This document shows positions 2,661 through 22,035 of a stretch of 64,000 nt of DNA, one piece after another. Both the position numbers and the translations under genes were made by a program. The notes beneath the pieces are model-generated. The model made no database searches, was not told the origin of the DNA, and saw nothing but the letters and a program-made list of their open reading frames with translations. Positions within the stretch are counted from its first letter, which is position 1. Each line of letters opens with the position of its first letter. Source of the DNA: an uncultured Victivallales bacterium (GTDB lineage Bacteria > Verrucomicrobiota > Lentisphaeria > Victivallales > UBA1829); contig CALXSJ010000002.1 in NCBI GenBank assembly GCA_944391115.1, positions 186,001-250,000 of the forward strand, written 5' to 3'.

Positions 2661-2912
2661 ATGAGAATCATGCGTAAAAAACATGCCGTGATGATGGAAT
2701 ATGTCATCATCGCCGTCCTGATTGCCGCGGCGGTTGTGGTCGCCGTCATCATGTTCGGAAAGAATGTCTCGAAGGAAATGAATGTCGCGACGCAGGCCAT
2801 GAGCGATGCGAAAGGCGCGGAGACATCCCAGAAAGCTGTGGAAACGGGAACGGCAAGTGACATCAAGAAGGCCAACGAGCACGAAAAGGCCATGCACAAT
2901 TACGATAAATAA
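2661..2912 (+). CDS. Flp/Tad-type pilin 1 with non-canonical cleavage site
   Basis: An 83-aa protein with a short basic leader (MRIMRKKH) followed by AVMMEYVIIAVLIAAAVVVA, a hydrophobic helix with Glu and Tyr at +5 and +6 when cleaved after His. This is the class III prepilin pattern, but the residue before the cut is His, not the usual Gly. The C-terminal half is hydrophilic, ends EKAMHNYDK and is probably exposed on the fibre. GGGAGG at 2646-2651 is a good ribosome site for the ATG at 2661. It is the first gene of the plus-strand Tad operon and is followed 24 bases later by a close paralogue. It is expected to be the major subunit of a Flp-like fibre. Confidence 0.75.
   Translation: MRIMRKKHAVMMEYVIIAVLIAAAVVVAVIMFGKNVSKEMNVATQAMSDAKGAETSQKAVETGTASDIKKANEHEKAMHNYDK
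2678..2770 (+). repeat. 93-bp exact direct repeat, copy 1
   Basis: These 93 bases are identical to 2954-3046 (offset 276). They cover the prepilin cleavage region and the hydrophobic helix of pilin 1. Confidence 0.95.
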
Positions 2913-2936
2913 GACTCGCAGCCGGGGAACATCAGA

Positions 2937-3188
2937 ATGAGAACCGTTGTCAGAAAACATGCCGTGATGATGGAATATGTCATCATCGCCGTCCTGATTG
3001 CCGCGGCGGTTGTGGTCGCCGTCATCATGTTCGGAAAGAATGTCTCCCATGAAATGAACGTGGCGACAAAGGCCATGAGCGACGCCAAGGGCGCGGAAAA
3101 CTATCAGGGCGAACTCAAGAAAAATGCGGCCGAGGACGTCAAGAAAGCCAACGAACACGAAAAGGCCATGCACAATTACGACAAGTGA
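2937..3188 (+). CDS. Flp/Tad-type pilin 2 with non-canonical cleavage site
   Basis: An 83-aa paralogue of the preceding pilin, with leader MRTVVRKH and then the same AVMMEYVIIAVLIAAAVVVA helix. The residue before the predicted cut is again His. The middle of the exposed half differs (ENYQGELKKNAAEDVKKA instead of ETSQKAVETGTASDIKKA), while the last residues (NEHEKAMHNYDK) are the same. The start ATG at 2937 follows CGGGGAACATCAGA, a modest ribosome site. The tandem copy suggests either dosage or two fibre subunits with different surfaces. Confidence 0.75.
   Translation: MRTVVRKHAVMMEYVIIAVLIAAAVVVAVIMFGKNVSHEMNVATKAMSDAKGAENYQGELKKNAAEDVKKANEHEKAMHNYDK
2954..3046 (+). repeat. 93-bp exact direct repeat, copy 2
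   Basis: Identical to 2678-2770. It lies in the same codons of pilin 2. Recombination between the copies would delete 276 bases and leave one in-frame hybrid pilin. Confidence 0.95.
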
Positions 3189-3262
3189 ACCTTGTTCCGG
3201 CTTTGTTCTTGAAACGGATGCTCGTGCTGCGGGGATCCGTTTTTTTATGGAATGGACTGCGG

Positions 3263-3811
3263 ATGGATTATCTGACACTTGGAAAACTCATTCTGGCTGC
3301 GCCGTGGCTGATTTATCTGTCGGTCCGCGACTTCCGCACCCATGAACTGCCGAACGCATGGGTGTTCGGCGGAATACTTGTGATGCTTGCCCTGGCGCTC
3401 GGCGTCGGCATGCCTTATGCGCTGGCGTCTCTGCTGACGGCGTTTTTTTCCTCGCTTTTCCTGCTGCTGCCTTTTTTCCTCCGGGCGGCGGGCGCCGGTG
3501 ATGTGAAAATGCTGTTTGCGGCCGGTCTGATTGCGGGGCCCGGCAACACGCTGAATCTGATCCTCCTGGTTTCTCTGGCCGGGCTTGTGCTTGCCGTTCT
3601 GATGCTGGCCTTCCGGAAGGTGAACGCTGCGAGAGTGAAGCACTACTGCCGCTGCCTGTTTGATTTCCGCTATGACCGGACGGAAGGAAGGAAAACCTTG
3701 CCGCCTCCCGATGCGGAAAGCTGCCGTGTGCCGTTCGGCGCGGCGATTGCGGCGGGACTTTTTCTGAATCTTCTGATGCAGCTGGTCTATTCTCTGGAGG
3801 GAGCCGGATGA
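3263..3811 (+). CDS. prepilin peptidase, TadV/CpaA type (peptidase A24)
   Basis: A 182-aa polytopic membrane protein expected to cut the leaders of the pilins and pseudopilins at the inner face of the membrane. Two aspartates stand where the A24 aspartyl protease family has its catalytic pair: VRDFRTHELPN near residue 25 and GAGDVKM (the family GxGD motif) near residue 80. The methylase domain of long PilD enzymes is absent, as is usual for Tad peptidases. The start is uncertain: the ATG at 3263 gives a family-like length, but an in-frame GTG at 3185 overlaps the stop of pilin 2. The stop overlaps the start of the next gene (ATGA). Because the local pilins have His before the cut, its specificity may be altered. 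Confidence 0.85.
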   Translation: MDYLTLGKLILAAPWLIYLSVRDFRTHELPNAWVFGGILVMLALALGVGMPYALASLLTAFFSSLFLLLPFFLRAAGAGDVKMLFAAGLIAGPGNTLNLILLVSLAGLVLAVLMLAFRKVNAARVKHYCRCLFDFRYDRTEGRKTLPPPDAESCRVPFGAAIAAGLFLNLLMQLVYSLEGAG

Positions 3812-4488
3812 GGCGGAAAAAAGAAACTTTTCTGAAATCCCGGAAAGGGGCGGCTCTTCTGGAGTTTGTATTCTGCTTCCCGATTCTGTTCGTCCTGTTC
3901 CTGTTTGCCGTCCAGTTCGCATACATCATGATTACCTGGCAGGTCGTGCACTACTCCGCCTACATGGGGGCGCGGTCGGCCATGACGGTCAACAATCTCC
4001 AGCGGAAAAGCCGCGCGGAAACTGTGGCGAAACGGATTCTCGCGGTTGTATCCGGTTCCCCCGCGGACTCGAAGGACGCGAAGGACCGTGCCGACGACAA
4101 ATATATCCGGCTCGACGGCTGGGGGAGACTCCCGAACACGAAATATCTGGATCAGCAGGTCGAAGTGGACATCCCCCTGATCGACGTCGACCCGCGCGGA
4201 CTCCAATGCACGGTCAAGTTCAAGATGTTCCTGCTGGTTCCGGTCGCGGGGCGGATCATCAGCTTCTTCGCAAAGGAAAAAAAGAGCGAGGAGGAGAAGA
4301 AGTGGGAAAAGAAGCTCGACGAACAGGCCTATGCGCTCAATCCCGCGCTGCTGGCGCAATATGCCAATGAGCTGGAAGTGAAGGGCTCCGACAAGAAGGA
4401 GAAGCTCAAATATCCGTATATCACGCTCTCCTCCACCAGCGTGATTGCCATTCCCTACGCGACAAAATTCTATCCGGTGGCGAAATGA
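3808..4488 (+). CDS. TadE-like pseudopilin
   Basis: A 226-aa protein with a basic leader and the class III cleavage motif KG^AALLEF, with Glu at +5 and the normal Gly before the cut, then a hydrophobic helix (FVFCFPILFVLFLFAVQF). The rest is a periplasmic domain rich in Lys/Glu around residues 150-165. TadE family proteins are minor pseudopilins needed to assemble Flp pili. The start overlaps the stop of the peptidase gene and the stop overlaps the next start, both by ATGA, so the genes are translationally coupled. Confidence 0.8.
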   Translation: MRRKKETFLKSRKGAALLEFVFCFPILFVLFLFAVQFAYIMITWQVVHYSAYMGARSAMTVNNLQRKSRAETVAKRILAVVSGSPADSKDAKDRADDKYIRLDGWGRLPNTKYLDQQVEVDIPLIDVDPRGLQCTVKFKMFLLVPVAGRIISFFAKEKKSEEEKKWEKKLDEQAYALNPALLAQYANELEVKGSDKKEKLKYPYITLSSTSVIAIPYATKFYPVAK

Positions 4489-6194
4489 ATCAGGCTTATC
4501 CGACCGTATTCACCGTATTTTCGGGAAAGTGCCGCGAGCTGGTCTCCGACAGCAGGGGCGCGGCGCTTGCGATCACGCTTGCCTTCGTCATGCCGATCTA
4601 TCTTCTGGTGATCGGCATCTACGGCATCGGGGAAGTGGTGCGCAACAAGATCGAACTCCAGAACGCTGCGGACGCGGCCGCCTATTCCGCTTCGGTGGTG
4701 CAGGCGGACTATCTCAGCCGGATCGCGACCGTCAACAAGGCGATGGCATGGACGTATGTGGATCTTCAGAAACGCTCCCTCGATCTGGCCATGGATCTCT
4801 TCTGCAAATACGTTTTCATCCAGTTTCAGAAGGATCTGAACATGGCGCGTCGGAACAACACCCCGTGCCACATGCATGTTCCGGGCCTGCATTACAACTG
4901 CGGAACGGATGTGCTGGTCGATCTCACGGAACTGATGATTCTCGGCACCGGTCTGGGAATACCGGAACTGGCAAAAAAATTTAACGGACAGGAGGCTTTA
5001 GACCGTTTCCTGCTGGCACAGCTGGTGTATACGACAGAGGCGGAATTCAAGGGAAAGGGTTCCATTACGAACACACCGAAAGTTTACGAATACAGTTATG
5101 CCATTACGAAAATGATGGCGAAACTCGATTCATTGCGCAGGGAGTTTCCAAACAAAGTCCGGGAGACCGCACAGAAGATCGCCGCAGCCAACATGATGGA
5201 GTGCAAGGACGATTACATGATCAATGTCACGCTCGGCGACATGACCGGCGCGTTTTTCACGATGCTGCCTTCCGAGGAGAATGAAAAAACGTTCATTTCC
5301 TTTGCGGATCCCACGCTGAAGGACTTTTCCCCGAAGAAGGTGTTCGGTCCCGGAACCGACGACTGGATCGTCAGGAAGGGAATTGCAGGCTTCTGGCGCG
5401 TTTATAACCAGACGAAAACTCATCTGTATGCGGAATGGGACTGGTTCTGGACTCGCTGGGTGCATGTCGATCTGGGCGAATTCCAGCTGCACCTTCCTCC
5501 GATGTTCGGCGGCAACGCCAAACGGGGGCATCCGAAATACCACGGGTATGACAGTTTCTTCCCGCTGATTAAGGAAAATGTGCCGATCGGGCTTCTGGTT
5601 CCGCCCGCGATTCCGCTTACGCTGACACCGCTCTTCTTCGGCAGGGCTGGTTCGATCACGGTTGCGATTGCGCGCAAGACGAGCAATCCGTTTTCCGTGT
5701 TCAGCTGGAGCGGGCGCTCCCTGACGGCGCCGTCGATTCTCTCCGCGTTCAATCCGAGCGTTGCGGGAGGGAACCGCCCGGAATACATGTGTGCCATCGC
5801 CTCCGCCCGTGCCGGCTACAAGCCTTATGAAAAGGACAAAGAGAAAAAGCGCAAGAGCGCCGACTACAATCTCGGCTACACCATCTCCAGCGGCGAGAAG
5901 GAATGGAATCTGGTGGAAACCGACTGGGACGGCGTCATGCTTCCCGTGAAGCACGCCTGGGATCTCTGTGCCGGCGTGGGAGAGGCGCAGGCCTTCACCG
6001 TCGGAAGCGGCAACATTCTCAAGGAGATCATGCTCGACAAGAAGAACTGGGTCGATGCGAAGGGAAAGAAGATCGACGAAAAGAAACTGCCCGACTGGGA
6101 GAAACTCAAACCGCCCGCCGGACTTGTCACGGACAAAGGCGACAAGGACGGCAAACTGCAATGGGATAAACTCCGGGATTATCTGGGACACTGA
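4485..6194 (+). CDS. TadG-like membrane-anchored protein of the Tad locus
   Basis: A 569-aa protein with one N-terminal hydrophobic segment, RGAALAITLAFVMPIYLLVI, that resembles the Flp/Tad helix but has Ile where pilins have Glu at +5. Next comes VRNKIELQNAADAAAYSAS, a sequence typical of TadG and related proteins. The large C-terminal part (about 500 residues) should be periplasmic and has no domain I recognise; the von Willebrand domain of many TadG proteins is not evident. It overlaps the preceding TadE gene by 4 bases, and the next TadE-like gene starts 3 bases after its stop. Confidence 0.7.
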   Translation: MNQAYPTVFTVFSGKCRELVSDSRGAALAITLAFVMPIYLLVIGIYGIGEVVRNKIELQNAADAAAYSASVVQADYLSRIATVNKAMAWTYVDLQKRSLDLAMDLFCKYVFIQFQKDLNMARRNNTPCHMHVPGLHYNCGTDVLVDLTELMILGTGLGIPELAKKFNGQEALDRFLLAQLVYTTEAEFKGKGSITNTPKVYEYSYAITKMMAKLDSLRREFPNKVRETAQKIAAANMMECKDDYMINVTLGDMTGAFFTMLPSEENEKTFISFADPTLKDFSPKKVFGPGTDDWIVRKGIAGFWRVYNQTKTHLYAEWDWFWTRWVHVDLGEFQLHLPPMFGGNAKRGHPKYHGYDSFFPLIKENVPIGLLVPPAIPLTLTPLFFGRAGSITVAIARKTSNPFSVFSWSGRSLTAPSILSAFNPSVAGGNRPEYMCAIASARAGYKPYEKDKEKKRKSADYNLGYTISSGEKEWNLVETDWDGVMLPVKHAWDLCAGVGEAQAFTVGSGNILKEIMLDKKNWVDAKGKKIDEKKLPDWEKLKPPAGLVTDKGDKDGKLQWDKLRDYLGH

Positions 6195-6197
6195 AAC

Positions 6198-6887
6198 ATG
6201 AGGAAAACACTCGACAATCTCTTCCGTTCCCGCCGCGGCTCCGTGCTGATGGAGTTCGTGCTGGTGCTTCCCGTCTATATGGCGACGATCGGCGGCATTC
6301 TGTGGCTCGGCATGAAATCCCTTGATGCGATCAATCTCCGCTCGGCGGATCACTGGGGGGTCTGGATGGCGGGCAGCCGTTTCTCCGCGCGGACACCGGC
6401 GCTGGCGGCCCTTCAGGAGATGTTCCCGCGCACATCGCTTATCACGGCCAGCCAGAAGCGGGCGCTGCATGCCGAACACTCCTATCTCCAGTTCATCGGT
6501 TCCAAAACCACGCTTTACGAAACGCGGCCCGGATTCCTCGACAACTGGATCAATATGCCTTATACGGTCTCCGGAGAGGACAAGCCCTTTTCCATTCCGG
6601 AGTTCCAGATCACCTCCTCCCGTTACGGGAACAAATACACGCAGTGCATCATCATGCGTTCCAAGGGATCCGCCACGGCGAAACGGCACTGGGATCCCAG
6701 TCTCGTTGCCAAACACAAGGTCTGGCAGTTCGATGCCAAGGACGACGAATATCCGAAGGAATGGAAGCTCGAACTGCTGGATGACCCGAAATACACCGAC
6801 GACACGAAAGAGCAGGAGAAGGAGCCTGAAAAGATCAAGTTCTACGAGCGCTTCAAAAAGTATGAACAATGGAGCACGGCGAAGTGA
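6198..6887 (+). CDS. second TadE-like pseudopilin
   Basis: A 229-aa protein with leader MRKTLDNLFRSRRG, cleavage motif G^SVLMEF (Gly before the cut, Glu at +5) and a hydrophobic helix through about residue 40. The exposed part is hydrophilic and ends Lys/Glu-rich. It probably works with the TadE-like protein encoded at 3808 as a minor subunit or tip component. It is in the same operon and overlaps the next coding region by 19 bases. Confidence 0.75.
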   Translation: MRKTLDNLFRSRRGSVLMEFVLVLPVYMATIGGILWLGMKSLDAINLRSADHWGVWMAGSRFSARTPALAALQEMFPRTSLITASQKRALHAEHSYLQFIGSKTTLYETRPGFLDNWINMPYTVSGEDKPFSIPEFQITSSRYGNKYTQCIIMRSKGSATAKRHWDPSLVAKHKVWQFDAKDDEYPKEWKLELLDDPKYTDDTKEQEKEPEKIKFYERFKKYEQWSTAK

Positions 6888-7345
6888 AAACGTTCCCGCT
6901 TTCGATTGCCGTTTTTCTGCTGGTGTTTCTTGGCGGGCTGGGGATGGTTCTGCTGCTGCATGCGCCCGTTCAGGAGAAAAGGAGCGCGGCGCCGCCGCCC
7001 GTTTCCGGCGTTCCCGCGGACGCTCCGCGCGGACTTCCGCCGCTTGTCCTGCCGCCTGGAACGGAGATGCGGCGCTGTCCGGAAAACAGCTGGGAATATA
7101 CCGGCGAAATCCATTCGAATTTTGTTTCCGCCCGCGGGCGGCTGAGTGCGTGGTTTCAGAATTATTCCTGGCGTCCGGAAAAACGGATCACGCTGGACGC
7201 AAGCTTGAAACCGCAGGTGATCCTGACATTTTCCAATCGCGAATATGAACTGACCCTGCTGCTCTGGAAGATCAAAACCGATTTGACCGGATTTTCCTAT
7301 CGGCGGGACAAAAAACCTGAGTGGAAGGGAGAGATGATCCAATGA
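6869..7345 (+). CDS. single-pass membrane protein of the Tad locus, function unknown
   Basis: A 158-aa protein with a hydrophobic segment at about residues 10-31 (LSIAVFLLVFLGGLGMVLLL), a proline-rich linker and a periplasmic domain of about 100 residues containing the stretch TEMRRCPENSWEYTG. I recognise no family. Its position between a TadE-like gene (19-base overlap) and an ATPase gene (ATGA overlap) argues for a structural role in the machine. Confidence 0.6.
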   Translation: MEHGEVKTFPLSIAVFLLVFLGGLGMVLLLHAPVQEKRSAAPPPVSGVPADAPRGLPPLVLPPGTEMRRCPENSWEYTGEIHSNFVSARGRLSAWFQNYSWRPEKRITLDASLKPQVILTFSNREYELTLLLWKIKTDLTGFSYRRDKKPEWKGEMIQ

Positions 7346-8415
7346 ATGACAACGCATCGTTTCTGGTCCTGTTTCTGGCGCCGGTGAAAGAGTATCTGGC
7401 CGATGACGCGGTTTCGGAGATCCTGATTAACGGTCCGTCGCAGATCTACATTGAGCGGAACGGCAGACTGGAAGAGACGGAAGCCCGTTTCGCCAATGAG
7501 GCGCAGCTGAAAGCCGCCGCCGTGAACATTGCAAAATCCGTGGACCGGCAGCTGGACGAGGCGCATCCGGATCTGGATGCGCGCCTCCCGGACGGTTCGC
7601 GCGTTCACGCCACCATTCCTCCGGTCAGCCGCAGCGGCACCATTCTCTCCATCCGGAAATTCAAGAAGGAGATGCTGACGATCGACAAACTCGAATCATT
7701 CGGAAGCATTCCGCATGAAGGCGTTCTTCTTCTGAATGCGATTGTGAAACTGCGGAAGAACACCATTGTCTCCGGCGGCACATCGTCCGGCAAAACCTCG
7801 GTTCTGAACGCGCTGAGCGGACTGATTCCGGACAAGGACCGCATTCTGGTGCTGGAGGACGCCAGCGAACTGCAGCTTCAGCAGAAGCACTGCGTCTATT
7901 TCGAAACCCGGAAGCCGGACAAGAACGGACAGGGCGAATTTTCAATCCGCGATCTGGTGATCGCTTCGCTGCGGCTCCGTCCCGACCGTCTGGTCATCGG
8001 CGAGATCCGCGGCGGCGAGGCGCTTGATCTTCTGCAGGCAATGAATACCGGACACTCCGGCTCCATGTCCACCATTCATGCGAACAGTCCGGTCGACGCG
8101 CTGAGCCGCATGGAGACCTGCGCGATTCTGAGCGGAGCCAGTCTGCCGCTGAACGCCATCCGGATGCAGGTGGCCTCCGCGATCAACTGTGTCGTCCATA
8201 CGATGCGCCTTCCGGACGGATCGAGAAAAATCGTCGAAATCGCCGAAGTCCTGCCGCTGGTTAACGGCGAATATGCGCTCCGCTCCCTGTTGCGCTGGAA
8301 AACGGAATCCGTTGCGCCGGACGGAACCGTCTCCGGGCATTTCCAGCTCGGCGAGGCGCCCTCCTTCCGCGACGCAGCCGGAATCCTGCACCTTGAACTG
8401 CCGGAATATCCATGA
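7342..8415 (+). CDS. short CpaF/TadA-type secretion ATPase (second ATPase of the locus)
   Basis: A 357-aa member of the VirB11/CpaF family that powers Tad and type II/IV secretion machines in the cytoplasm. Walker A is GGTSSGKTS (about residue 150), the Walker B-like segment is RILVLEDASEL, and the signatures LRLRPDRLVIGEIRG and GHSGSMSTIHANSPVDAL are intact. It lacks the long N-terminal region and FHA domain of the other ATPase of this locus (16028-17728). The start at 7342 gives an ATGA overlap with the preceding gene and has GGGAGAG upstream. Which of the two ATPases extends or retracts the fibre cannot be read from the sequence. Confidence 0.9.
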   Translation: MNDNASFLVLFLAPVKEYLADDAVSEILINGPSQIYIERNGRLEETEARFANEAQLKAAAVNIAKSVDRQLDEAHPDLDARLPDGSRVHATIPPVSRSGTILSIRKFKKEMLTIDKLESFGSIPHEGVLLLNAIVKLRKNTIVSGGTSSGKTSVLNALSGLIPDKDRILVLEDASELQLQQKHCVYFETRKPDKNGQGEFSIRDLVIASLRLRPDRLVIGEIRGGEALDLLQAMNTGHSGSMSTIHANSPVDALSRMETCAILSGASLPLNAIRMQVASAINCVVHTMRLPDGSRKIVEIAEVLPLVNGEYALRSLLRWKTESVAPDGTVSGHFQLGEAPSFRDAAGILHLELPEYP

Positions 8416-9266
8416 AAAAATCCGGGGAGGTGCTCTCGTTCTTTTTTGCCGGGGAACGGATTGCCGCCTTTCAGCTGGTCCGGAACCTGCGCGTCCGTGA
8501 ACTTTCCGAGTGCTGGCTTGCGGTGAAACTGGATACGGGGCTTCCCGTTGCGGTTAAATTTCTCCGGAGGGAACACCCGCGGATCCCGCAGTTCTATGAC
8601 ACGGCGGAGTTCCTGCGGACATGCGCATGTCCTTTTCTGATCCATGTGCTGGAGTGCGGGGAGACAGCGCAGATGATGCCTTACGCGGTCATGGAATACG
8701 CAGAAAAAGGAACGCTCCGGAAACGTCTGACGAAAAACGGCCGTCTTCCGTTTCCCGAGGCTGTCCGGCTTCTGCGTGAGATGCTTCTCGCGCTGCAGGC
8801 GCTGCATGAGCACGGTATGGTCCACCGGGATGTCAAGCCGGACAACATCTGGCTGATGTCTGACGGGACTTTCCGCCTGGGCGATCTCGGCACGGTGAAA
8901 CTGCCCGGCTTCACGGAGGAGCCGGGCGCGGTGTTCGGCACAGCCTCCTACCTGTCGCCGGAACAGGCGCGCGATTCAACTTCCGTTGACGCTCGGAGCG
9001 ACCTTTACAGCCTTGGACTGGTCCTCTTTGAAGCCCTGACGGGAAAACGCCGCCGTCCGAGAATGGATAATTTCGCCGACGCGCTCAAGAATGTCCTTGC
9101 CGACCATTCGCCTCCTCCTGTTGCGGATCTGCGTGCCGCTGCGACGGAAAAACTGGTATTTCTGCTGGGCAGGATGATGGAATACGCTCCCGCGCTGCGT
9201 CCGGAGAGCGCCGCGGAGGCGCTTGCGGAACTGAACGCAATGGAATTGCCGGACGGATATTCCTGA
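8412..9266 (+). CDS. Ser/Thr protein kinase (Hanks type) of the Tad locus
   Basis: A 284-aa kinase domain with little else. The catalytic loop HRDVKPDN, the ATP lysine in VAVKF, a DLG in place of DFG, GTASYLSPEQ (APE-like) and DARSDLYSLG are all visible. The glycine-rich loop is poor: the expected stretch reads LRVRELSECW without its glycines. There is no membrane segment or sensor domain, so it should be cytoplasmic. It overlaps the ATPase gene by ATGA and is the last gene of the plus operon. Three proteins with FHA or FHA-like domains (phosphothreonine readers) are encoded in the facing operon, so phospho-control of assembly or secretion is the natural reading. No PP2C phosphatase was found in the window. 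Confidence 0.9.
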   Translation: MKKSGEVLSFFFAGERIAAFQLVRNLRVRELSECWLAVKLDTGLPVAVKFLRREHPRIPQFYDTAEFLRTCACPFLIHVLECGETAQMMPYAVMEYAEKGTLRKRLTKNGRLPFPEAVRLLREMLLALQALHEHGMVHRDVKPDNIWLMSDGTFRLGDLGTVKLPGFTEEPGAVFGTASYLSPEQARDSTSVDARSDLYSLGLVLFEALTGKRRRPRMDNFADALKNVLADHSPPPVADLRAAATEKLVFLLGRMMEYAPALRPESAAEALAELNAMELPDGYS

Positions 9267-9296
9267 ACTTTCCGGCCGTGCGCCGGGAACACTCCT

Positions 9297-10166
9297 TCAG
9301 TTCCCTTCCGGAAGGCGGAATTTTTCCAGAAGCATCTTCCAGCGGGCGGAACTCTCTTTTTTCGCTTTGATTTCTTCCGGTGCAAGGGAGGCGATTTCAA
9401 GAATTTCCCGGTCGGACAGCCGCAGCAGCAGCGGAAGCGCATCCAGTCCCGCCTTGCGCAGATGCTCCGCCGCCCGGGCAAGCCGGCGCCGCAGAACGAG
9501 TTCCCGCAGGATGACGGCAGCGGGAAGAAGGAGCGGGAAAAACCACCCCGGCATTCCTGCGGCGGCAAGACCGGACGCCGCCGCAAGTCCGCCGAAAAAC
9601 AGCGCGGGCAGCTCCCATCGCCGGAACAGATTTCCGATCGTGCGCCGGAACGCGGACGCGTTCACCTGACAGGCGAAATATTCCTCGTAGACGGAGGAGG
9701 GAAACGCTGTTCTTGCCGCGTGAACCATCTCATGCGCAAGAGATTCCGACGCGTCATAGCCCAGTCGTTCCTCCCTGTCTGCAAAGGCGCCGTGCAGAAA
9801 AACGATCGGAAGCAGGCGGTCGATTTCCAGCAGAACGCCGGCGGAAAGAATGCCGGTCTGTTTCGAATCGCAGCGCACGGGAACCCATGCCGCGCGGAAG
9901 CGGTATTTCTCCCAGGTCAGATTGACGGCTTTCCGATGCGCTGCCGGAAGAGGGAAGCGCGCCTGCGCAATCAGCTGCTGAAGATCGGAAGCTCCCTCCT
10001 GAAGCGCGCTCAGTTCGCCGTGCAGTTTTTCCAGCCGTCCGGCAAACTGTTCCGCCGTTTCGCCGGGCGCCGGAAAGAGTCCGGCGGAATCAAACTCCGC
10101 CAGCACTGCGGGAAGTGCATCCGGTGCGCATTCACGGAGCTTTTTCCAGGAGGAGGGCGTTGTCAT
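9297..10166 (-). CDS. membrane protein with HExxH zinc-protease motif
   Basis: A 289-aa protein of no family I recognise. Residues 141-150 read ESLAHEMVHA, a zincin motif with His145, Glu146 and His149, followed 12 residues later by Glu161-Glu162 (EEYFA), a plausible third zinc ligand as in gluzincins. Two hydrophobic segments lie at about residues 187-222, and the C-terminal region is basic and helical. The ATG at 10166 is chosen because it sits just behind the stop of the small pilin-like gene; earlier in-frame codons run into that gene. As the last gene of the minus Tad operon it may process or turn over pilin-type substrates. That role is an inference from position and motif only. Confidence 0.6.
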   Translation of the reverse strand: MTTPSSWKKLRECAPDALPAVLAEFDSAGLFPAPGETAEQFAGRLEKLHGELSALQEGASDLQQLIAQARFPLPAAHRKAVNLTWEKYRFRAAWVPVRCDSKQTGILSAGVLLEIDRLLPIVFLHGAFADREERLGYDASESLAHEMVHAARTAFPSSVYEEYFACQVNASAFRRTIGNLFRRWELPALFFGGLAAASGLAAAGMPGWFFPLLLPAAVILRELVLRRRLARAAEHLRKAGLDALPLLLRLSDREILEIASLAPEEIKAKKESSARWKMLLEKFRLPEGN

Positions 10167-10167
10167 G

Positions 10168-10377
10168 TCATGGAACCGGCAGGGAGATGACGGTGACGAT
10201 ACGCTGGTAAAGCGCAACGATGCTTTTGCCGATCGGCCCGAAGGAACCGCCGCCGAAGCCGGACAGCGAGTAGACGGAAGCGGAGGCCGCAAAAACCAGC
10301 GGCAGAATCGAGCAGAGCAGGATCGTGTATTCCAGAAGAACGCTCCGTTTCCTCGAAATTTTCCGTTTTCCGGTCAT
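10168..10377 (-). CDS. 69-aa pilin-like protein
   Basis: Leader MTGKRKISRKR, then SVLLEYTILLCSILPLVFAA, with Glu-Tyr at +5/+6 when cut after Arg, followed by a Ser/Gly-rich middle and a hydrophobic C-terminus. The pattern matches class III prepilins, but as in the two pilins at 2661 and 2937 the Gly before the cut is missing (Arg here). Its start overlaps the stop of the upstream FHA gene by ATGA, and the next gene starts two bases after its stop. It could be a minor pilin or initiator. Confidence 0.6.
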   Translation of the reverse strand: MTGKRKISRKRSVLLEYTILLCSILPLVFAASASVYSLSGFGGGSFGPIGKSIVALYQRIVTVISLPVP

Positions 10378-12728: not shown

Positions 12729-14203
12729 TCTTCAATCGTCCAGATGTTTTTCATGATCTTCACATGCCTGTGGTCGTCCGGAGAGGGGAAGCGGCGCAGG
12801 CATTCGCTTACGATCCTGTTCATGCCCGCAGTATTCTCCGCCGTCTGATAGGTCTGATATGCCAGGCAGCACTGCGAATACCAGATCTGCTGCTTCTCCT
12901 TGAACTCCAGCCAGAGAGGCAGTACCGCGGCGGTCAGCACCTCGTCGCGGCTTTCATACGCGCGGCAGAGCAGTGTCCGCAGCATCGCATCCAGGTCATC
13001 CCAGACGGCGACCGCGATATTTTTCCGCAGTTCCTGCGAAGCTCGCTGGAGCAGACGCGTCGAGTCGCCCTCCATTTGCTTTTCCGGGATCTCCCAGTAA
13101 CGGTCCGCCATCGCCGGAGAGACGACAAACGCGCCGAAACTCTGCAGAACCCGGTCGGAGCGCCAGAAATGACCGACCGGAACCTCCCGCAACAGAACCA
13201 GCTCCTTGTCGTGATAGCGCATGTAGCTGGCGTACCCCTGCCAGCGGAAATTTTTGTCCTGCCTGCTGTAGGCGAGACGGTAATAAGGGAAGCCGCCTTC
13301 CGCAGGCCGGTAGAAATCCTGCTTCGGCTCTTCGAGGAATGCGAAGCCCCGCTGTTCGGAAACCCGTTTCCGCCAGTCGTCAAAGCTTTTTTTGCGCGTC
13401 GTCCGGAATCCGTCCGGCACGGTGCTGACCGTGAATACAATGTGGAACGGCACGTCAAAGTTTTTGCCGAGTGCGGTCATGATCTCGCAGTTGTTCCCCT
13501 CGCTTTTCACCACGGTTGCGGACATTTTCGGGAAATAGACAAGGCATTTTCCCCCGGGAGCGATTTCCGTCCGGACCTCCCCGTCGCTGTAGTTGCCGGA
13601 GACTTCGCCCGGCCAGGTGACCGGATTCTCCAGCCGGAGTTCGGAAAGCACATATGAACCCGCCAGAATCAGGACGAACACCAGAATGCCTGTTCCGATG
13701 ACAATCTGTTTCCGGCGTTTCTGACTGCGGTTGAATTTCCGCAGGTCGTCGAGCTCCGCGGCGGAGGCATAGCGCGTGCGGTCTCCCTCCTGCGGATGAT
13801 TGCTCTCCGTGCCGTCGCCGGTCAGTTCCTCGGTCGGTTCCTCGGTGTCGTCTCCGTCTGCCGCAGGGGGAACGGGCGGCGGTGAATCATCCGCTTCGAG
13901 CATAAAGGTCAGCTCTTTGCCGATCCGGACGTCCGCGCCCGGAAGCAGGCAGCGGTCCTCTCCCCCCGGAACCTCCTCGCCGTTCACCAGTGCGGACGCG
14001 TTCTCAAACACGTGCAGCAGAACGCCGGAATCCGACTGCGGCATCAGCGTGACATGTTCCGTTGCGATATCCGTTCCGCCGGGACGGATGTCCGCGTCGC
14101 GCCGCCGCCCGATCACGGTGCCGGAATTCAGAATGGCAAACGTGCGTCCGGCCAACTCGCCGGAGAGGAACTTTATCTTGTAACTGGACGGCGCTTTTTC
14201 CAT
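12725..14203 (-). CDS. FHA-like membrane protein of the Tad locus
   Basis: A 492-aa protein. Residues 1-105 have the size and start of an FHA domain (VIGRRRDADI), but the phospho-binding motifs are weak: ATEHV stands for SRxHA and NASALVNG for NGTxVNG. An acidic linker, a membrane segment at about 166-187 (QIVIGTGILVFVLILAGSYV) and a periplasmic domain of about 300 residues follow. The last codons overlap the start of the next FHA gene by ATGA. Together with the 784-aa protein it may form a transmembrane collar around the TadB/TadC platform; that is inference. Confidence 0.7.
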   Translation of the reverse strand: MEKAPSSYKIKFLSGELAGRTFAILNSGTVIGRRRDADIRPGGTDIATEHVTLMPQSDSGVLLHVFENASALVNGEEVPGGEDRCLLPGADVRIGKELTFMLEADDSPPPVPPAADGDDTEEPTEELTGDGTESNHPQEGDRTRYASAAELDDLRKFNRSQKRRKQIVIGTGILVFVLILAGSYVLSELRLENPVTWPGEVSGNYSDGEVRTEIAPGGKCLVYFPKMSATVVKSEGNNCEIMTALGKNFDVPFHIVFTVSTVPDGFRTTRKKSFDDWRKRVSEQRGFAFLEEPKQDFYRPAEGGFPYYRLAYSRQDKNFRWQGYASYMRYHDKELVLLREVPVGHFWRSDRVLQSFGAFVVSPAMADRYWEIPEKQMEGDSTRLLQRASQELRKNIAVAVWDDLDAMLRTLLCRAYESRDEVLTAAVLPLWLEFKEKQQIWYSQCCLAYQTYQTAENTAGMNRIVSECLRRFPSPDDHRHVKIMKNIWTIEE

Positions 14204-14213
14204 GAAATCCTCC

Positions 14214-15110
14214 TCAGAACAGCGGAACGCCGGCTTCCTTCATCTTGAGGAAGACCGGAGTCAGAATGATGATGAAAACGGCGGGAAGAATGAACAGCGC
14301 CATCGGCAGAAGCATCAGCGAAGGCGCCCGCTGGGCTTTGCATTCGGCCAGTGCGAAACGGGCTTTGCGCATTTCCTCCCCCTGAATCTCCATCGTTTCC
14401 GTCAGCGGCGCGCCCAGTTCGGTTCCCAGCGCAATCGCGGCGGCGAACGAGGTGAATTCCTTGATCTGGATCCGGTCCGCCATGTTCTGCAGCGCAGCGG
14501 TCCGGATCACGCCGAGTTCCATTTCCCGGAGCATCTGGGAATATTCGTCCGTCAGCGGCCCGGCGATTCCCAGCTTGACATAAAAACGGATCGCCGCGGA
14601 AAAATCCAGTCCGCCGCGCATGGCCGAGGCGATCAGGTCGATGGAATAGGGGATCGCCTTCAGGATTTCCATCCGGCGTTTCTGCGCAAGGTTGCCGATC
14701 ATGATGCCGGGTATGCTGCCTCCGACGAATGCGGCGATCAGTGCGGCGATGGGAATGGAAATGCGGTTTTCGCGGTCCGCCAGCAGGGCCGTGACGCATC
14801 CGGCCGCCAGCGCCAGAGCGGCTCCAAGGACCAGCTGGGTGCAGTAGACGGTCCCCGGCGTGAGTTTCAAACCGGCAAAAGTCAGCTTTTTCTGCAGCGC
14901 GGAAGTGTGCCCCCGGAAGACAATCTGGAACAGAGTCCCTATGCCCGCGCTTTCAAAGATATCCGCCAGGGGTTTGACCAGGCGGAAGATCAGCGGGGTG
15001 TTTTCCGGCTTTTCCGCTTTCTTTTCCGGCTTCTCCGCCAGAACGACGAAAAAAAGCGTCGGGAGCAGGACCGCCAGGAAAGTCAGCGCATAAATGAAGA
15101 TCTGTTTCAT
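14214..15110 (-). CDS. TadC-like inner-membrane platform protein (T2SS-F family)
   Basis: A 298-aa protein with hydrophobic segments at the N-terminus (IFIYALTFLAVLLPTLFFVV), in the middle (LVLGAALALAAGCVTALLA) and at the C-terminus (LMLLPMALFILPAVFIIILT). The cytoplasmic part contains RRMEILKAIPYSIDLIASAMRG and GTELGAPLTETMEIQGEEMR, typical of the GspF/TadC fold. The start at 15110 has AAGGTG upstream; in-frame codons further up run into tadB. It pairs with the TadB-like protein encoded 4 bases upstream to form the platform on which the ATPases act. Confidence 0.85.
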   Translation of the reverse strand: MKQIFIYALTFLAVLLPTLFFVVLAEKPEKKAEKPENTPLIFRLVKPLADIFESAGIGTLFQIVFRGHTSALQKKLTFAGLKLTPGTVYCTQLVLGAALALAAGCVTALLADRENRISIPIAALIAAFVGGSIPGIMIGNLAQKRRMEILKAIPYSIDLIASAMRGGLDFSAAIRFYVKLGIAGPLTDEYSQMLREMELGVIRTAALQNMADRIQIKEFTSFAAAIALGTELGAPLTETMEIQGEEMRKARFALAECKAQRAPSLMLLPMALFILPAVFIIILTPVFLKMKEAGVPLF

Positions 15111-15114
15111 TGTT

Positions 15115-16014
15115 TCACACCTTGATGTCCACAATTGTCCGAATTACGAAATAACCGATCACTTCCAGCGTCAGCATCACACCGATGGCGCACCATCCGA
15201 TCAGAGTCTGCACCATCGGCAGCATCAGGTCGTTGTTGATGAAGAAAAGCAGGAGAAATGCCGCCAGCGGCGCCAGCGACATGGCCAGCGCTTCGAAACG
15301 CCCCTGTGCCGTCAGCGCCCGGAGTTTCTGCTGGAATTCCGTCCGTCCCCGGATCATCCAGGTGATTTTCTCCAGCACGTCCACCATGCTTCCGCCGGAC
15401 TGGGTTGTCAGGCGGATGGAAATGATCAGAAGCTGCAGATCCTCGCAGGGAATCCGGTTGTACATGCGCTGGAGCGCTTCCGCCAGTTCCAGACCGAGAC
15501 GGTATTCCCGGATCACAATCATCAGCTCCTCCTTCAGCGGGCCCTCGCAGCGCCGGGAGAACACTTCCAGCGCCTGCGGCAGCGCCTGTCCCGCCCGCAG
15601 TCCGCTGGTCAGCCCGAGCGCGAGATCCAGAATGCTGTTTTCAAACTGTTCCGCGCGTTTGCGCGCCTTGACGGAGAAGTAGAACCAGGGCGCCGTCAGA
15701 CCCAGGGCGAACACCAGGGCTCCGGCGGGCACGATGATCAGCGGTTCGTATACCTGGCAGAACACCAGAGTGGCGACCAGTCCGCCGGACAGCAGGATTC
15801 CCGCGGAAAGCTGAATCTGCTGCAATGTGGTGCGGTTGATGAAGTAGTAGACATTGTTCGCCACTCCTTCGGAACGGTTTTCCCTGATCCTGCGGTCGGT
15901 TTGTTCCAGACTGAACGACTGGATCAGGGAGATGAGAATGTAAATCAGAAGGGCGACGGCGAAAAGCACCAGCAGATACACGCCGTAGCGTTCCGTGATC
16001 GAGACTGAATTCAT
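15115..16014 (-). CDS. TadB-like inner-membrane platform protein (T2SS-F family)
   Basis: A 299-aa protein with hydrophobic segments near residues 12-33 (GVYLLVLFAVALLIYILISL) and 70-110 and a C-terminal pair (MSLAPLAAFLLLFFINNDLM). The T2SS-F core reads ALGLTSGLRAGQALPQALEV and RLTTQSGGSMVDVLEKITWM. The ATG at 16014 was chosen because the in-frame extension to 16152 lies inside the ATPase gene; GAAAGGAG stands just upstream. It is the partner of TadC in the same operon. Confidence 0.87.
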   Translation of the reverse strand: MNSVSITERYGVYLLVLFAVALLIYILISLIQSFSLEQTDRRIRENRSEGVANNVYYFINRTTLQQIQLSAGILLSGGLVATLVFCQVYEPLIIVPAGALVFALGLTAPWFYFSVKARKRAEQFENSILDLALGLTSGLRAGQALPQALEVFSRRCEGPLKEELMIVIREYRLGLELAEALQRMYNRIPCEDLQLLIISIRLTTQSGGSMVDVLEKITWMIRGRTEFQQKLRALTAQGRFEALAMSLAPLAAFLLLFFINNDLMLPMVQTLIGWCAIGVMLTLEVIGYFVIRTIVDIKV

Positions 16015-16027
16015 TCCATGCTCCTTT

Positions 16028-17728
16028 CTACCCTTCCGGCACGAAGACGGACATGTCCAGCTCCAGATCGCCGGCCTGCCGCAGTTCATCGATGAATTTC
16101 GGGATGTTGCCGGTGGCCGTATGCCGTCCGACCACGTGGAATTTCTCGTCAAACCCTTCCTGTTCGAACGTGAAGATGTCCTGCAGGAGAATGGTGCTGC
16201 CTTCCCGTCCGGTCACTTCGGAGATCTTGACGATTTTTCTGGAGCCGTCCGGAAGCCGGGTCTGCTGAACGATCAGGTGAATTGCCGACGCGATCTGTTC
16301 CCGGATTGCCGACGAAGGCAGTTCGAATCCCGCCATCATGACCATGTTTTCGAGACGCGACAGTGCGTCGCGCGGATTGTTCGCGTGGCAGGTGGTCATC
16401 GAGCCGTCATGTCCGGTGTTCATCGCCTGCAGCATGTCGAGAGCCTCCGCGCCGCGGCATTCTCCGACAATGATCCGGTCCGGCCGCATGCGCAGCGTGT
16501 TGATGACCAGATCGCGGATTGTGACACGCCCCTGTCCCTCGACGTTGGCCGGGCGCGCCTCCAGGCGGCAGAGATTCTCATGGCTCAGCTTCAGTTCCGC
16601 CGAATCCTCCACCGTGATGATGCGTTCCTTTTCCGGAATGAACTGCGAGAGAATGTTCAGAAGCGTCGTCTTGCCCGAACCGGTTCCGCCGGACACCAGA
16701 ATGTTGCGCCGTGCGCGGACCGCCTCCCGGAGAAAAAGCGCCATCGGGCGGGTCAGACTTCCGTATCCGATCAGATCTTCATCGGTCAGTTTCCGGGACG
16801 GGAATTTGCGGATGGTCACCAGTGACCCGTCGAGCGCCAGAGGAGGAATGACCGCATTTACCCGGGAACCGTCCTCCAGCCTGGCGTCCACCATCGGGGA
16901 GGCCGCGTCGATATGGCGCCCCAGGGGTTCCACAATGCGCTGAATGATGGACTGCAAATGGGTTTCCCCGTTGAATTTCGCGGCGGAACGGTAGAGCAGT
17001 CCCCTGCTTTCCACAAAGATGTTTTCCGGTCCGTTGATCATGATTTCCGAGATGCTCGTGTCGCGCAGCAGCGGAGAGAGCGGTCCGAGCCCGATCAGGT
17101 CGTCGAGCAGAATCCTCCGGAACTGGTCCAGATTGACGCCGGAAGGAATTTCATGGCGGATTTCCCGCAGAATCCGTTCGACAGTCTCCTCGACCTTCGG
17201 ACGCATTTCACTGCTCGTCATCTCTTTTGCGGAGGAGTTGCCGATATTCAGGAGTTCCAGCACGCGGTTCTGCACCTGTCTTGCAAGACGGATCATTGTG
17301 TCGCTGTAAAGAGCGACGAGGGCGGTCTGCGCGGCATAGACCGGCAGACGGTGTCCTTCCTGAGAGTCCGGCTTCGGTTTTGCCGTTCCGGGGACGCTTC
17401 CGGCGGACTGCGGCGGCACGGACTGCGGAATCGAATCGCTTTCTTTCAGAATCAGCTCCGTTTCCCCGATCTGGATGGTGTCGCCTGACGCAAGTCCGGT
17501 CCGGCCGGAAATGGAATTCCCGTTTACGCGCGTTCCTGTGCGGCTTCCCAGATCTTCCAGGAACACATTGTCTCCGCTCATGGTGATTTCGGCGTGGCGG
17601 CGGGAGACTTTCTTGTCCGCGATGCAGAGTCCGGCGCTTTCGGAACGCCCGATCGTCATGGGGCATTTCCCCTCCAGGGAGACAGTTTTTTCCCCGCCGT
17701 CCGCGGTTTTTACTTTCAGCTGCATCAT
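16028..17728 (-). CDS. FHA-CpaF/TadA fusion ATPase
   Basis: A 566-aa cytoplasmic ATPase. Residues 1-100 are a canonical FHA domain (MTIGRSESAG, KVSRRHAEI, LGSRTGTRVNG), then a Ser/Pro linker, then a complete CpaF ATPase of about 420 residues: INGPENIFVESRG, Walker A SGGTGSGKTT, ITVEDSAELKL, LRMRPDRIIVGECRG and GHDGSMTTCHANNPRDAL. Canonical Tad ATPases lack the FHA domain. With the Ser/Thr kinase encoded at 8412 the fusion suggests that the motor itself is recruited or gated by phosphothreonine. ATG codons at 17728 and 17725 are both possible starts. Confidence 0.92.
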   Translation of the reverse strand: MMQLKVKTADGGEKTVSLEGKCPMTIGRSESAGLCIADKKVSRRHAEITMSGDNVFLEDLGSRTGTRVNGNSISGRTGLASGDTIQIGETELILKESDSIPQSVPPQSAGSVPGTAKPKPDSQEGHRLPVYAAQTALVALYSDTMIRLARQVQNRVLELLNIGNSSAKEMTSSEMRPKVEETVERILREIRHEIPSGVNLDQFRRILLDDLIGLGPLSPLLRDTSISEIMINGPENIFVESRGLLYRSAAKFNGETHLQSIIQRIVEPLGRHIDAASPMVDARLEDGSRVNAVIPPLALDGSLVTIRKFPSRKLTDEDLIGYGSLTRPMALFLREAVRARRNILVSGGTGSGKTTLLNILSQFIPEKERIITVEDSAELKLSHENLCRLEARPANVEGQGRVTIRDLVINTLRMRPDRIIVGECRGAEALDMLQAMNTGHDGSMTTCHANNPRDALSRLENMVMMAGFELPSSAIREQIASAIHLIVQQTRLPDGSRKIVKISEVTGREGSTILLQDIFTFEQEGFDEKFHVVGRHTATGNIPKFIDELRQAGDLELDMSVFVPEG

Positions 17729-17737
17729 AAGCCGTCT

Positions 17738-19321
17738 TTACCAGGTAAACATTTTCAGGAACCAGTTCCGTTCCTCGCGCTCATGCGCCTTTTCACTTTT
17801 TTTCCGGACCGATTCGGAAACCATTTTCTCCGCACCCGCCGTCTCCGCGGACGGGGCGCTTGTCATCTGCACCTTGCGCTCCGCGATTCTGGGACAGGCC
17901 AGAATCAGCAGGACCATCTCCTCTCCCTGTTTTTCCTCGGAGGACAGAAACCAGCTGACGATCGGAACATGGCGCAGAAACGCGTATCCGCTCGGTCCGC
18001 TCTCGGAATAGGTCAGCTCCTTCTGTCCCGCGATGACGGCCGTCTTGTTGAGCGGACAGAAGATTTCCGCCGTGGTCTTTGTGGAGCGCTGGAAATAATC
18101 CTCCTCCTGCTTGATGGGCGCGAGACTCTTTTCCAGATCGAATTCCAGGCGGACCATGTCGGCCCGGACCAGTCCGCCGCGGACCTTCATCTTCAGACCG
18201 AAGTTGATCGGCTGCAGATTTGCCACATCCTGGCTGTAAACCTTGACATTCAGGGTTCCGCCGTTTTCATACACAGCGTATCTGCTGCTGTTGTTGGTGA
18301 GTGTAAGATGGCCCGCGTCGCGGAAATCGGAAATGCCGTTGTTGCCGAAGAATACAAGTGAACCCTTCAAGTCGGTATTGAACTGGGAATAAAGGCCTTT
18401 TCCGTCCGTCGGACCGGTGAGTCCCTCCGGCGCGCCTCCGGCCAGCGCCCGGAACCAGGCGATCAGGTTCCAGGAGAGAACCGTTCCGTCCGCGGACGAG
18501 TTGCCGAGACGTTCCAGCTGCGTCCTTGTCACGCCGACGAACACGACGCCGACATCCAGCTGGGTGTCGGCGATGTTCAGCTCCGTCACCGCTTTCAGGG
18601 CGTTCCCGTTCCATTCCGGGGAGAGCCATGTCTGGGCGGCGAGAATCCGTTTGACCGCGGCAATGTCATTTTCGCAGAGCAGATAGCCGGAAACCGTCAG
18701 AAGGCCGTTCGACACCTCGAGTTTAAGCTGTCCGGGGACATCCGGGGAAATCGTGTCTGCGACCTTGAATCCCGCGCTTTCAAGACGGTTTTTCAAATCC
18801 GTGAAGAGCGCCGGGCCCGGGCGGAACGTCACATAGTTGTGACAGCGGTCCTCATAACGCCTGACAACCCGCCGGAAATATTCCCAGTGTCCCGGTCTGG
18901 TGATCTCTCCGCGCAGCGTCAGGACATTGTCCGAAAGCTCGATTCCGATCTCGGGCAGATCGCCCAGTTCCCTGCTGAGCTCGCGGTAAACCTGCATGAC
19001 GGAACTGGACACGGTCACGCGGAACTCCTTTTTCATCCCGTTTGCCGAAGCCGTTACGACGGCGTTTCCGACCGAGATTCCCTCCAGTTCAAAGGAACGT
19101 CCGTTCACCTGACTGACTTTTGCACAGGACGTGCTTGACTTGCACTGTGCAATCTGGAAGGGCACTTCGAATTTCCGGGATTCCCCGGTGGAGATTGTGA
19201 CGCTTTCCGGCGGCAGCGTCACAGCAGTTCCGTTCCATCCGGGAACGTCCGCGGATCCGGCGCCATGCGCCGGAAACAGAATTCCCGATGCCAGGGCAAG
19301 CAGAGAGAAGAAGATTCTCAT
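17738..19321 (-). CDS. Tad outer-membrane secretin (CpaC/RcpA-like)
   Basis: A 527-aa protein with a cleavable signal peptide (MRIFFSLLALASGILFPAHG). The N-terminal half has repeated small domains, including a BON-like stretch (IELSDNVLTLRGEI). The C-terminal part is the secretin domain: LDVGVVFVGVTRTQLERLG, then strands such as NFGLKMKVRGGLVRADMVRL, and near the end KTAVIAGQKELTYSESG and HVPIVSWFLSSEEKQ. It should form the gated outer-membrane channel. GAGGTG precedes the ATG at 19321; a longer start at 19336 would overlap the cpaB stop by ATGA. Confidence 0.88.
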   Translation of the reverse strand: MRIFFSLLALASGILFPAHGAGSADVPGWNGTAVTLPPESVTISTGESRKFEVPFQIAQCKSSTSCAKVSQVNGRSFELEGISVGNAVVTASANGMKKEFRVTVSSSVMQVYRELSRELGDLPEIGIELSDNVLTLRGEITRPGHWEYFRRVVRRYEDRCHNYVTFRPGPALFTDLKNRLESAGFKVADTISPDVPGQLKLEVSNGLLTVSGYLLCENDIAAVKRILAAQTWLSPEWNGNALKAVTELNIADTQLDVGVVFVGVTRTQLERLGNSSADGTVLSWNLIAWFRALAGGAPEGLTGPTDGKGLYSQFNTDLKGSLVFFGNNGISDFRDAGHLTLTNNSSRYAVYENGGTLNVKVYSQDVANLQPINFGLKMKVRGGLVRADMVRLEFDLEKSLAPIKQEEDYFQRSTKTTAEIFCPLNKTAVIAGQKELTYSESGPSGYAFLRHVPIVSWFLSSEEKQGEEMVLLILACPRIAERKVQMTSAPSAETAGAEKMVSESVRKKSEKAHEREERNWFLKMFTW

Positions 19322-19332
19322 GATTCCACACC

Positions 19333-20133
19333 TCATCTGTGATCTTTGTTCGGGATTTCCGGCAGTTCCGCAGGAACAAGGCCTTTGCGGATTTTCGAGA
19401 AGGTGTCGGCGTTGACGACTCCGCTGTCCTTCCGGTTGAGAGCGGCTGAATCGTTCCGTTTCCGCAGCACCGGATAAAGCTCGGATTCCCGCTGGGCCGC
19501 GATCAGGATCATGGCCTGCTGCGGCGGAAGGGATACGAAAATCGTCCCGCTGGAGCTGCCGCCTTCCCGGAAGGAGCCCTGTTCATTGGCGATGCCGATC
19601 ACTCTTACACACGGCAGAAGGACGGAGGTCTCCCGCGACTCTGTCATTTTCACGCCGGAGCCGTCGCTCTCTTTCATGTTTTTATCGATGGCGACGCTTG
19701 GGGAGACATAGGTGGAAATGATGGCGATCTCGTCATCGGGCATCAGCATCCTGACAAGGGCGGGATCGGAAAAAGTCACGGGAACCGTCCATTCGCCCTG
19801 CCTGGCGCAGTCGCTGAGCGTCGTCTGGATTCTGATGTCGGTCATCAATATGTAGTCATCCTGCGAAACCGCATGCGGCAGCTGCTGGCCGTACGCCAGA
19901 CTGACGTTTTCCCACAGAAGAGCATTTTTCGGAACGGCCGACTGCGGAATGTCCTTGTAGGTGAGCGAGCCCTGTGTCAGTTCGTCATGCGCATTCAGCG
20001 CCCGGGCCGCGACGACGACCGACACTTTGTTTTCCGTATCGTTTTCCTCTTTCTCGAAAAGCAGTTTGCTGACGATGTAAACCGCCGCCAGTCCCAGAAC
20101 CACCGAAACTATCAGGGGAATGATATTTTTCAT
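19333..20133 (-). CDS. CpaB/RcpC-like pilus assembly protein
   Basis: A 266-aa protein with an N-terminal membrane anchor (IIPLIVSVVLGLAAVYIVSK), then a SAF-like domain (VVVAARALNAHDELTQGSL) and a CpaB core region (PALVRMLMPDDEIAIISTYV). CpaB proteins are periplasmic partners of the secretin. First gene of the minus-strand Tad operon, with the promoter at 20180-20207. The ATG at 20133 places the membrane segment directly at the N-terminus. Confidence 0.85.
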   Translation of the reverse strand: MKNIIPLIVSVVLGLAAVYIVSKLLFEKEENDTENKVSVVVAARALNAHDELTQGSLTYKDIPQSAVPKNALLWENVSLAYGQQLPHAVSQDDYILMTDIRIQTTLSDCARQGEWTVPVTFSDPALVRMLMPDDEIAIISTYVSPSVAIDKNMKESDGSGVKMTESRETSVLLPCVRVIGIANEQGSFREGGSSSGTIFVSLPPQQAMILIAAQRESELYPVLRKRNDSAALNRKDSGVVNADTFSKIRKGLVPAELPEIPNKDHR

Positions 20134-20911: not shown

Positions 20912-20915
20912 TTTT

Positions 20916-22034: not shown

Positions 22035-22035
22035 G

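Follow-up and report, generated by a model that had tools for sequence, protein, structure and literature searches.

A 64,000-nucleotide stretch of the genome of an uncultured Victivallales bacterium (the window; positions 186001–250000 of contig C2, in an assembly of 3.66 Mb, 44 contigs and 95% completeness) carries a pilus-like gene cluster together with a Ser/Thr kinase and forkhead-associated (FHA) domains, which are phosphothreonine readers. Open reading frames (ORFs) and Pfam/NCBIfam searches resolve the locus into two convergent operons, at 2661–9266 on the plus strand and 20133–9300 on the minus strand, and recover in place every gene that an initial annotation had named there. By its parts, the locus is a type IVb (Tad/Flp) pilus machine. 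The plus operon encodes, in order, two pilins, an A24 peptidase, TadE, TadG, TadE2, unk7, ATPase 1 (ATP1) and the kinase; the minus operon encodes CpaB, a secretin, an FHA-bearing CpaF (FHA-CpaF), TadB, TadC, two further FHA proteins (FHA1x and FHA2x), a small pilin-like protein and an HExxH membrane protein. In the list below, TM stands for transmembrane.

2661–2912 (+), Flp-type major pilin 1; PF04964, 19.9 bits; prepilin site KH/AVMMEY, with His at −1 for Gly
2937–3188 (+), Flp-type major pilin 2; PF04964, 18.3 bits; same atypical His(−1) site as pilin 1
3185–3811 (+), A24 prepilin peptidase (TadV/CpaA-like); PF01478, 49 bits
3808–4488 (+), TadE-like pseudopilin; PF07811, 39 bits
4485–6194 (+), TadG-like protein; PF13400, 27.8 bits; 28% identical to its paralog on contig C25
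6198–6887 (+), second TadE-like pseudopilin (TadE2); PF07811, 21.4 bits, slightly below the cut-off here and above it in the whole-genome search
6869–7345 (+), unk7, a conserved protein with one TM-like segment, present in most sibling loci; no function assigned
7321–8415 (+), second CpaF-type ATPase (ATP1), without FHA; PF00437 (T2SSE), 183 bits; NCBIfam TadA family below cut-off
8412–9266 (+), soluble Hanks-type Ser/Thr kinase; PF00069, 114.5 bits
9300–10262 (−), membrane protein with an HExxH motif (SLAHEMVHA), perhaps a metalloprotease; confined to window-type loci (14 of 14 examined)
10168–10377 (−), small pilin-like inner-membrane protein (SVLLEYTILL); kept in 13 of 13 sibling loci searched
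10374–12728 (−), FHA2x, with two FHA domains, one TM segment and a large helical domain past it; FHA, 85 bits in total
12725–14203 (−), FHA1x, with a degenerate FHA, a disordered linker containing T143-R-Y-A-S-x-x-E, a TM segment and a periplasmic domain; FHA, 17.3 bits against a cut-off of 20.7
14214–15134 (−), TadC-type platform protein; PF00482 (T2SSF), 48 bits
15115–16014 (−), TadB-type platform protein; PF00482 (T2SSF), 50 bits
16028–17728 (−), main motor ATPase (CpaF), FHA domain at its N terminus; T2SSE, 213 bits; FHA, 66.5 bits
17738–19336 (−), secretin (CpaC/RcpA-like); PF00263, 31 bits
19333–20133 (−), CpaB/RcpC; NCBIfam TIGR03177, 74.3 bits against a cut-off of 71

FHA or FHA-like domains had been assigned to three of these proteins, and this assignment holds: 10374–12728 has two, 16028–17728 has one and that of 12725–14203 is sub-threshold, so that 'FHA-like' is the right label for FHA1x. 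The HExxH membrane protein and the small pilin-like protein are two conserved genes beyond those listed in the initial annotation. The secretin and CpaB matches are both above their cut-offs, and ATP1 has an intact Walker A motif (GGTSSGKT) and an intact RPDRLVIGEIR stretch. Neither TadZ/CpaE nor TadD was recognized in a search confined to the ORFs of the locus; these components are not universal in Tad systems.

Genome-wide FHA and kinase searches revealed a paralog on contig C25, arranged as one long operon: pilins, A24 peptidase, TadE, TadG, TadE2, a receptor-like kinase, CpaB, secretin, FHA-CpaF, TadB, TadC, FHA1x, FHA2x, a PP2C phosphatase, a kinase-like protein with HGD in place of HRD, and ATPase 1. 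The receptor-like kinase has 1,101 amino acids, one TM-like segment and Sel1 repeats, and all three FHA proteins bear FHA domains with the Arg and Ser of the binding pocket. Identities between C25 and window proteins range from 24% (FHA1x) to 57% (ATPase 1). A third, reduced Tad locus on contig C7 (CpaB, FHA-CpaF, TadB, TadC and one FHA protein) has no adjacent kinase. The window locus belongs to a derived, simplified branch, and a complete version is kept on C25. A sigma-70-like factor with a small possible anti-sigma partner lies ahead of the C25 operon (L030:11517–12334); none lies beside the window operon.

We searched 149 genomes of the class with a TadC profile, which gave two groups of matches, type A (window- and C25-like) and type B (C7-like). 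Sixty stretches of at most 20 kb, later extended and then widened to the whole phylum, were annotated with hidden Markov models from window, C25 and C7 proteins; these models were built from few seeds, and many contigs were short. The closest named relative locus is that of the uncultured Victivallales metagenome-assembled genome BRZ_N__bin192 (TadC 92% identical). Every type-A locus long enough to show it has the core CpaB–secretin–FHA-CpaF–TadB–TadC–FHA1x–FHA2x. A kinase is linked to this core in 37 type-A loci, usually with PP2C and the second ATPase: 13 window-type, 11 C25-type, 3 multi-kinase, 7 from other families or genera of the class and 3 from other classes. The last two sets mostly have PP2C, ATPase 1 and the kinase in that order at the 3′ end. 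In one window-type genome (G339) the two operons lie on separate contigs and the order unk7–ATP1–kinase is retained. PP2C accompanies the core in 9 C25-type loci, 3 multi-kinase loci, 10 other loci of the class and 2 loci of other classes, and is absent from the window locus and all window-type loci. An apparent lack of the kinase in other families of the class proved spurious, as the gene closes the operon there and falls slightly outside the 20 kb first covered; apart from the kinase-less loci taken up below, the other type-A loci lie on contigs that end too early to show one. With 13 kinase matches in 3.66 Mb, a kinase is expected within any 20 kb with a probability of about 0.07, so the recurrence of this gene set in dozens of genomes is more than chance. 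The initial annotation's proposal turned on whether the kinase and FHA genes stay with the Tad genes in relatives, and they do, including in other classes of the phylum.

FHA–kinase fusions occur in or beside Tad loci (L077:1883–3667, L074:15955–19797 and L118:6164–7924), a further link between the two activities, and some kinases of multi-kinase loci are fused to FHA. L126 seemed to have a fusion to the ATPase, but the additional N terminus has no Pfam match and the idea was dropped. Searches of plasmids with FHA2x (tblastn) gave matches at the level of the FHA domain only.

We tallied the key FHA residues over alignments of window-type, C25-type, multi-kinase, other and type-B loci. Arg, Ser, Arg and His are present in the CpaF FHA of 44 of 44 type-A loci, including 13 of 13 window siblings, whereas in type-B loci, which have no kinase, its Arg is lost in 14 of 14. 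Outside the window type, Arg and Ser also persist in FHA1x and in the first FHA of FHA2x (FHA2x-a), throughout the C25-type and multi-kinase loci and in almost all of the others. Predicted models of FHA1x (FHA, linker, TM helix, periplasmic domain) and FHA2x (two FHA domains, TM, large helical part) have mean predicted local distance difference test (pLDDT) scores of 85.6 and 85.7, respectively. Between the FHA and the TM helix of FHA1x, a motif, TRxASxEE, stands out amid variable sequence (Thr in 40 of 41, Glu in 39 of 41, Arg and Ala each in 37 of 41, Ser in 34 of 41). In the model, residues 107–146 have pLDDT below 50 and a helix begins at 148. The motif is recognizable in two loci of other classes, absent from the FHA proteins of kinase-less type-B loci and degraded in L076, which has no kinase. 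Its Thr is a candidate phosphosite, and the near-invariance of the motif, together with the conserved CpaF FHA residues, suggests phospho-dependent docking of the motor.

The locus kinases appear to be of one clade: in a tree with five other kinases of the genome as background, all of them fall on one side (Shimodaira–Hasegawa-like approximate likelihood ratio test (SH-aLRT) 94, not starred). Those of the window type group together as a single clade (100), and the nearest kinases likewise adjoin ATP1 (87). The window-type kinases have no TM-like segment, whereas the C25-type, N-type and outgroup kinases examined have one. C25-type and multi-kinase kinases carry TxxT[MIV][VIL] motifs ahead of the kinase domain.

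On this basis of gene content, gene order, co-occurrence, residue conservation, and predicted folds and site disorder, we propose that Lentisphaeria and some other classes of the phylum have a family of Tad pili in which a Ser/Thr kinase, usually with PP2C, controls engagement of the motor with its platform, and of which the window copy is a derived member; we regard this proposal as evenly poised. A membrane-spanning receptor kinase would phosphorylate the Thr of TRxAS in the cytoplasmic linker of FHA1x, as well as the TxxT motifs in its own N-terminal extension. The CpaF FHA would then bind the phosphothreonine and bring the main motor ATPase to, or hold it at, the TadB/TadC platform, and PP2C would reverse the phosphorylation. 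ATP1, which lacks an FHA and is encoded beside the kinase, may drive an opposite or later step such as retraction. We infer the phosphorylation of the FHA1x Thr by the kinase, its binding by the CpaF FHA and the role of the second ATPase from the sequences. The window copy has both ends of the proposed link, the CpaF FHA and the Thr, and a divergent soluble kinase, with no phosphatase and no receptor part. That the scheme extends through the phylum as one Tad family whose motor is loaded onto the platform by phosphothreonine (a kinase acting on TRxAS, the CpaF FHA as reader, PP2C as reset and ATP1 for a separate stroke) is a more tentative suggestion, and we think it somewhat doubtful.

The family plausibly works like the threonine phosphorylation pathway of the type VI secretion system (T6SS), which comprises the kinase PpkA, the phosphatase PppA and Fha. 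Both have a membrane kinase, a PP2C phosphatase and an FHA protein alongside a surface machine, and C25 and most relatives have the full set. Here the machine is a Tad pilus, and in the window copy neither the phosphatase nor the receptor portion of the kinase is present; of its FHA domains, only that of CpaF combines the phosphothreonine-binding Arg, Ser and His. If the phylum-wide scheme holds, it would give the first example, to our knowledge, of a kinase/phosphatase/FHA clutch on the motor of a type IV filament, and the window type would illustrate how such a clutch is reduced to one reader and one site. With a kinase, mostly a phosphatase, an FHA motor and a candidate phosphosite together and conserved, phosphorylation control of such a motor can be tested directly with purified parts, and the four states of the circuit (complete, multi-kinase, reduced and kinase-less) amount to a natural experiment on which parts are needed.

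Several observations weigh against phosphorylation control, first of all in the window copy. Compared with an active Hanks-type kinase, the window kinase has the β3 Lys, HRD, Asn, DLG and SPE motifs, but the Gly-rich loop, the αC Glu and the activation-loop Thr are missing, so it cannot simply be taken to be active. All three are lost in the 13 aligned window-type kinases, in which a conserved stretch (LRVRELSECW in the window) replaces the Gly loop and whose branch in the tree is long, at 1.57 changes per column. The CpaF FHA, in type A as in the window, has another residue for the first Asn usual in the SxNGT loop (Thr in 10 of 13); the binding Ser of FHA1x is lost in 16 of 16 window-type copies; FHA2x-a has Gln for His in the window, although it retains Arg and Ser, and its Ser is lost in 12 of 14 window-type copies, the window being among the two that retain it. 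In the second FHA of FHA2x (FHA2x-b), Arg is replaced by Ser in all window-type loci. Thus Arg, Ser and His occur jointly in one of the four window pockets, that of the CpaF FHA. As the window type is one clade, this loss of pockets is one history and not many. The kinase losses and long branch, the degraded FHA1x and FHA2x-a pockets and the missing PP2C favour a reading in which the switch has decayed in the window branch, leaving a pseudokinase scaffold in a machine no longer under phosphorylation control. This reading is compatible with a phosphorylation switch in the rest of the family, and we give it a substantial, though minority, share of belief. Against it, the β3 Lys, HRD Asp, Asn and DFG-position Asp (D[LF]G) are kept in 13 of 13 window-type kinases, the gene is intact across two families, and the CpaF FHA and the FHA1x Thr are fully kept. 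The switch that the initial annotation envisaged is likely in the family, given the linked kinase, the frequent PP2C and the invariant motor FHA, but uncertain in the window's own copy, with three of four FHA pockets impaired, no PP2C and kinase motifs missing.

Other points bear on the family as a whole. Because the loci share descent, the counts of kinase-linked loci are not independent. No kinase lies within reach of two type-A loci of the class (L075/L111 and L076/L112), nor did one appear in the fetched stretch of two loci from other classes (L122–L125). Type-B loci carry FHA domains and no kinase (0 of 15 stretches), an absence that is weak evidence because only about one would be expected by chance at the kinase density of the genome. 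The S-x-x-E at the end of the TRxAS motif is a common helix N-cap, so a structural role may explain why the motif is conserved. FHA1x also resembles SctD/YscD of the type III secretion system (T3SS), in which the FHA-like domain is structural: this is its only NCBIfam model (25.7 bits, below the cut-off), and YscD ranks second in its fold search against the PDB, in which the matches are FHA domains (GarA, OdhI) and which, dominated by them for both FHA1x and FHA2x, is uninformative on the periplasmic parts. This likeness and the FHA proteins of kinase-less type-B loci accord with FHA domains that serve as structural adaptors, FHA1x and FHA2x (both FHA–TM–periplasmic) forming an inner-membrane ring while the kinase, PP2C and second ATPase act elsewhere. 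FHA2x-b fits the same picture, as its phosphate-binding Arg is lost in nearly all loci (replaced by Ser in all C25-type and multi-kinase loci too, and in 11 of 16 others). The likeness of FHA1x to SctD/YscD covers a cytoplasmic FHA fold, one TM segment and a periplasmic domain, but in nearly all loci of other than window type FHA1x retains, as FHA2x-a does, the Arg and Ser of a phosphothreonine pocket. A purely structural FHA has no need of Arg, Ser and His, yet the CpaF FHA retains them throughout type A, and the kinase, mostly with PP2C, remains linked across classes. We consider a solely structural role unlikely.

The initial annotation's further suggestion of a contact-triggered killing or secretion device like Kil of Myxococcus xanthus is very improbable. 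Kil likewise combines an FHA fusion of its CpaF ATPase with further FHA proteins, and some non-window-type relatives have, between their minor-pilin genes, a large variable gene that in two loci shows weak similarity to lipases, but Kil has one ATPase and no TadG and has been reported only from delta-proteobacterial predators (PMC8460266), whereas the window locus has a TadG-like protein and two CpaF-type ATPases, no effector or toxin gene recognized by Pfam searches, and no tie to prey contact.

FHA domains on Tad motors have been noted before, without a known kinase. The Kil authors proposed a signalling cascade by analogy with the T6SS and mentioned no kinase (PMC8460266); our comparison with Kil follows its published description. 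Class III CpaF proteins, mostly betaproteobacterial, have an N-terminal FHA, a linker and the CpaF core, with no linked kinase described (PMC12019362); the window FHA-CpaF has the same build but sits in a locus with a kinase. In the open-licence PMC literature we found no description of a kinase or phosphatase linked to Tad and FHA genes. Set beside Caulobacter Cpa and Aggregatibacter Tad, the window locus shares the Flp-type pilins, A24 peptidase, TadE/TadG-like proteins, CpaF, TadB, TadC, secretin and CpaB; it adds the Ser/Thr kinase, two FHA membrane proteins and the second CpaF-type ATPase, and differs in having no recognized TadZ/CpaE or TadD and in the His at −1 of its major pilins.

A member of the same genus has a conventional Tad locus (L087/L114; G043:C23) without the CpaF FHA, FHA1x, FHA2x or the kinase, which could be used as an internal control. 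The variable gene among the minor pilins lies in loci from other families of the class (L107:13904–16189, L111:3224–5035, L106:12627–16019 and L105:2537–4657); two of the products give weak lipase-like matches and others have amphipathic-helix repeats, and they could be tip or cargo proteins. A promoter scan was uninformative (5 sites against 4.7 expected), and terminator-like sites numbered 38 against 22.9 expected. Just past the locus, at 20408–25146, translations inspected by eye suggest a MarR-like regulator, a periplasmic adaptor and an RND transporter.

The major pilins keep the EY and the hydrophobic part of the Flp family, with weak PF04964 matches that are below the cut-off for both. 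All 8 window-type major pilins, those of L119–L121 included, have His for Gly at −1 (KH/AVMMEY). Pilins of the other types have Gly at this position in 23 of 26 entries, some of which are counted twice, and the TadE-like proteins also retain Gly. The A24 peptidase may have an altered specificity.

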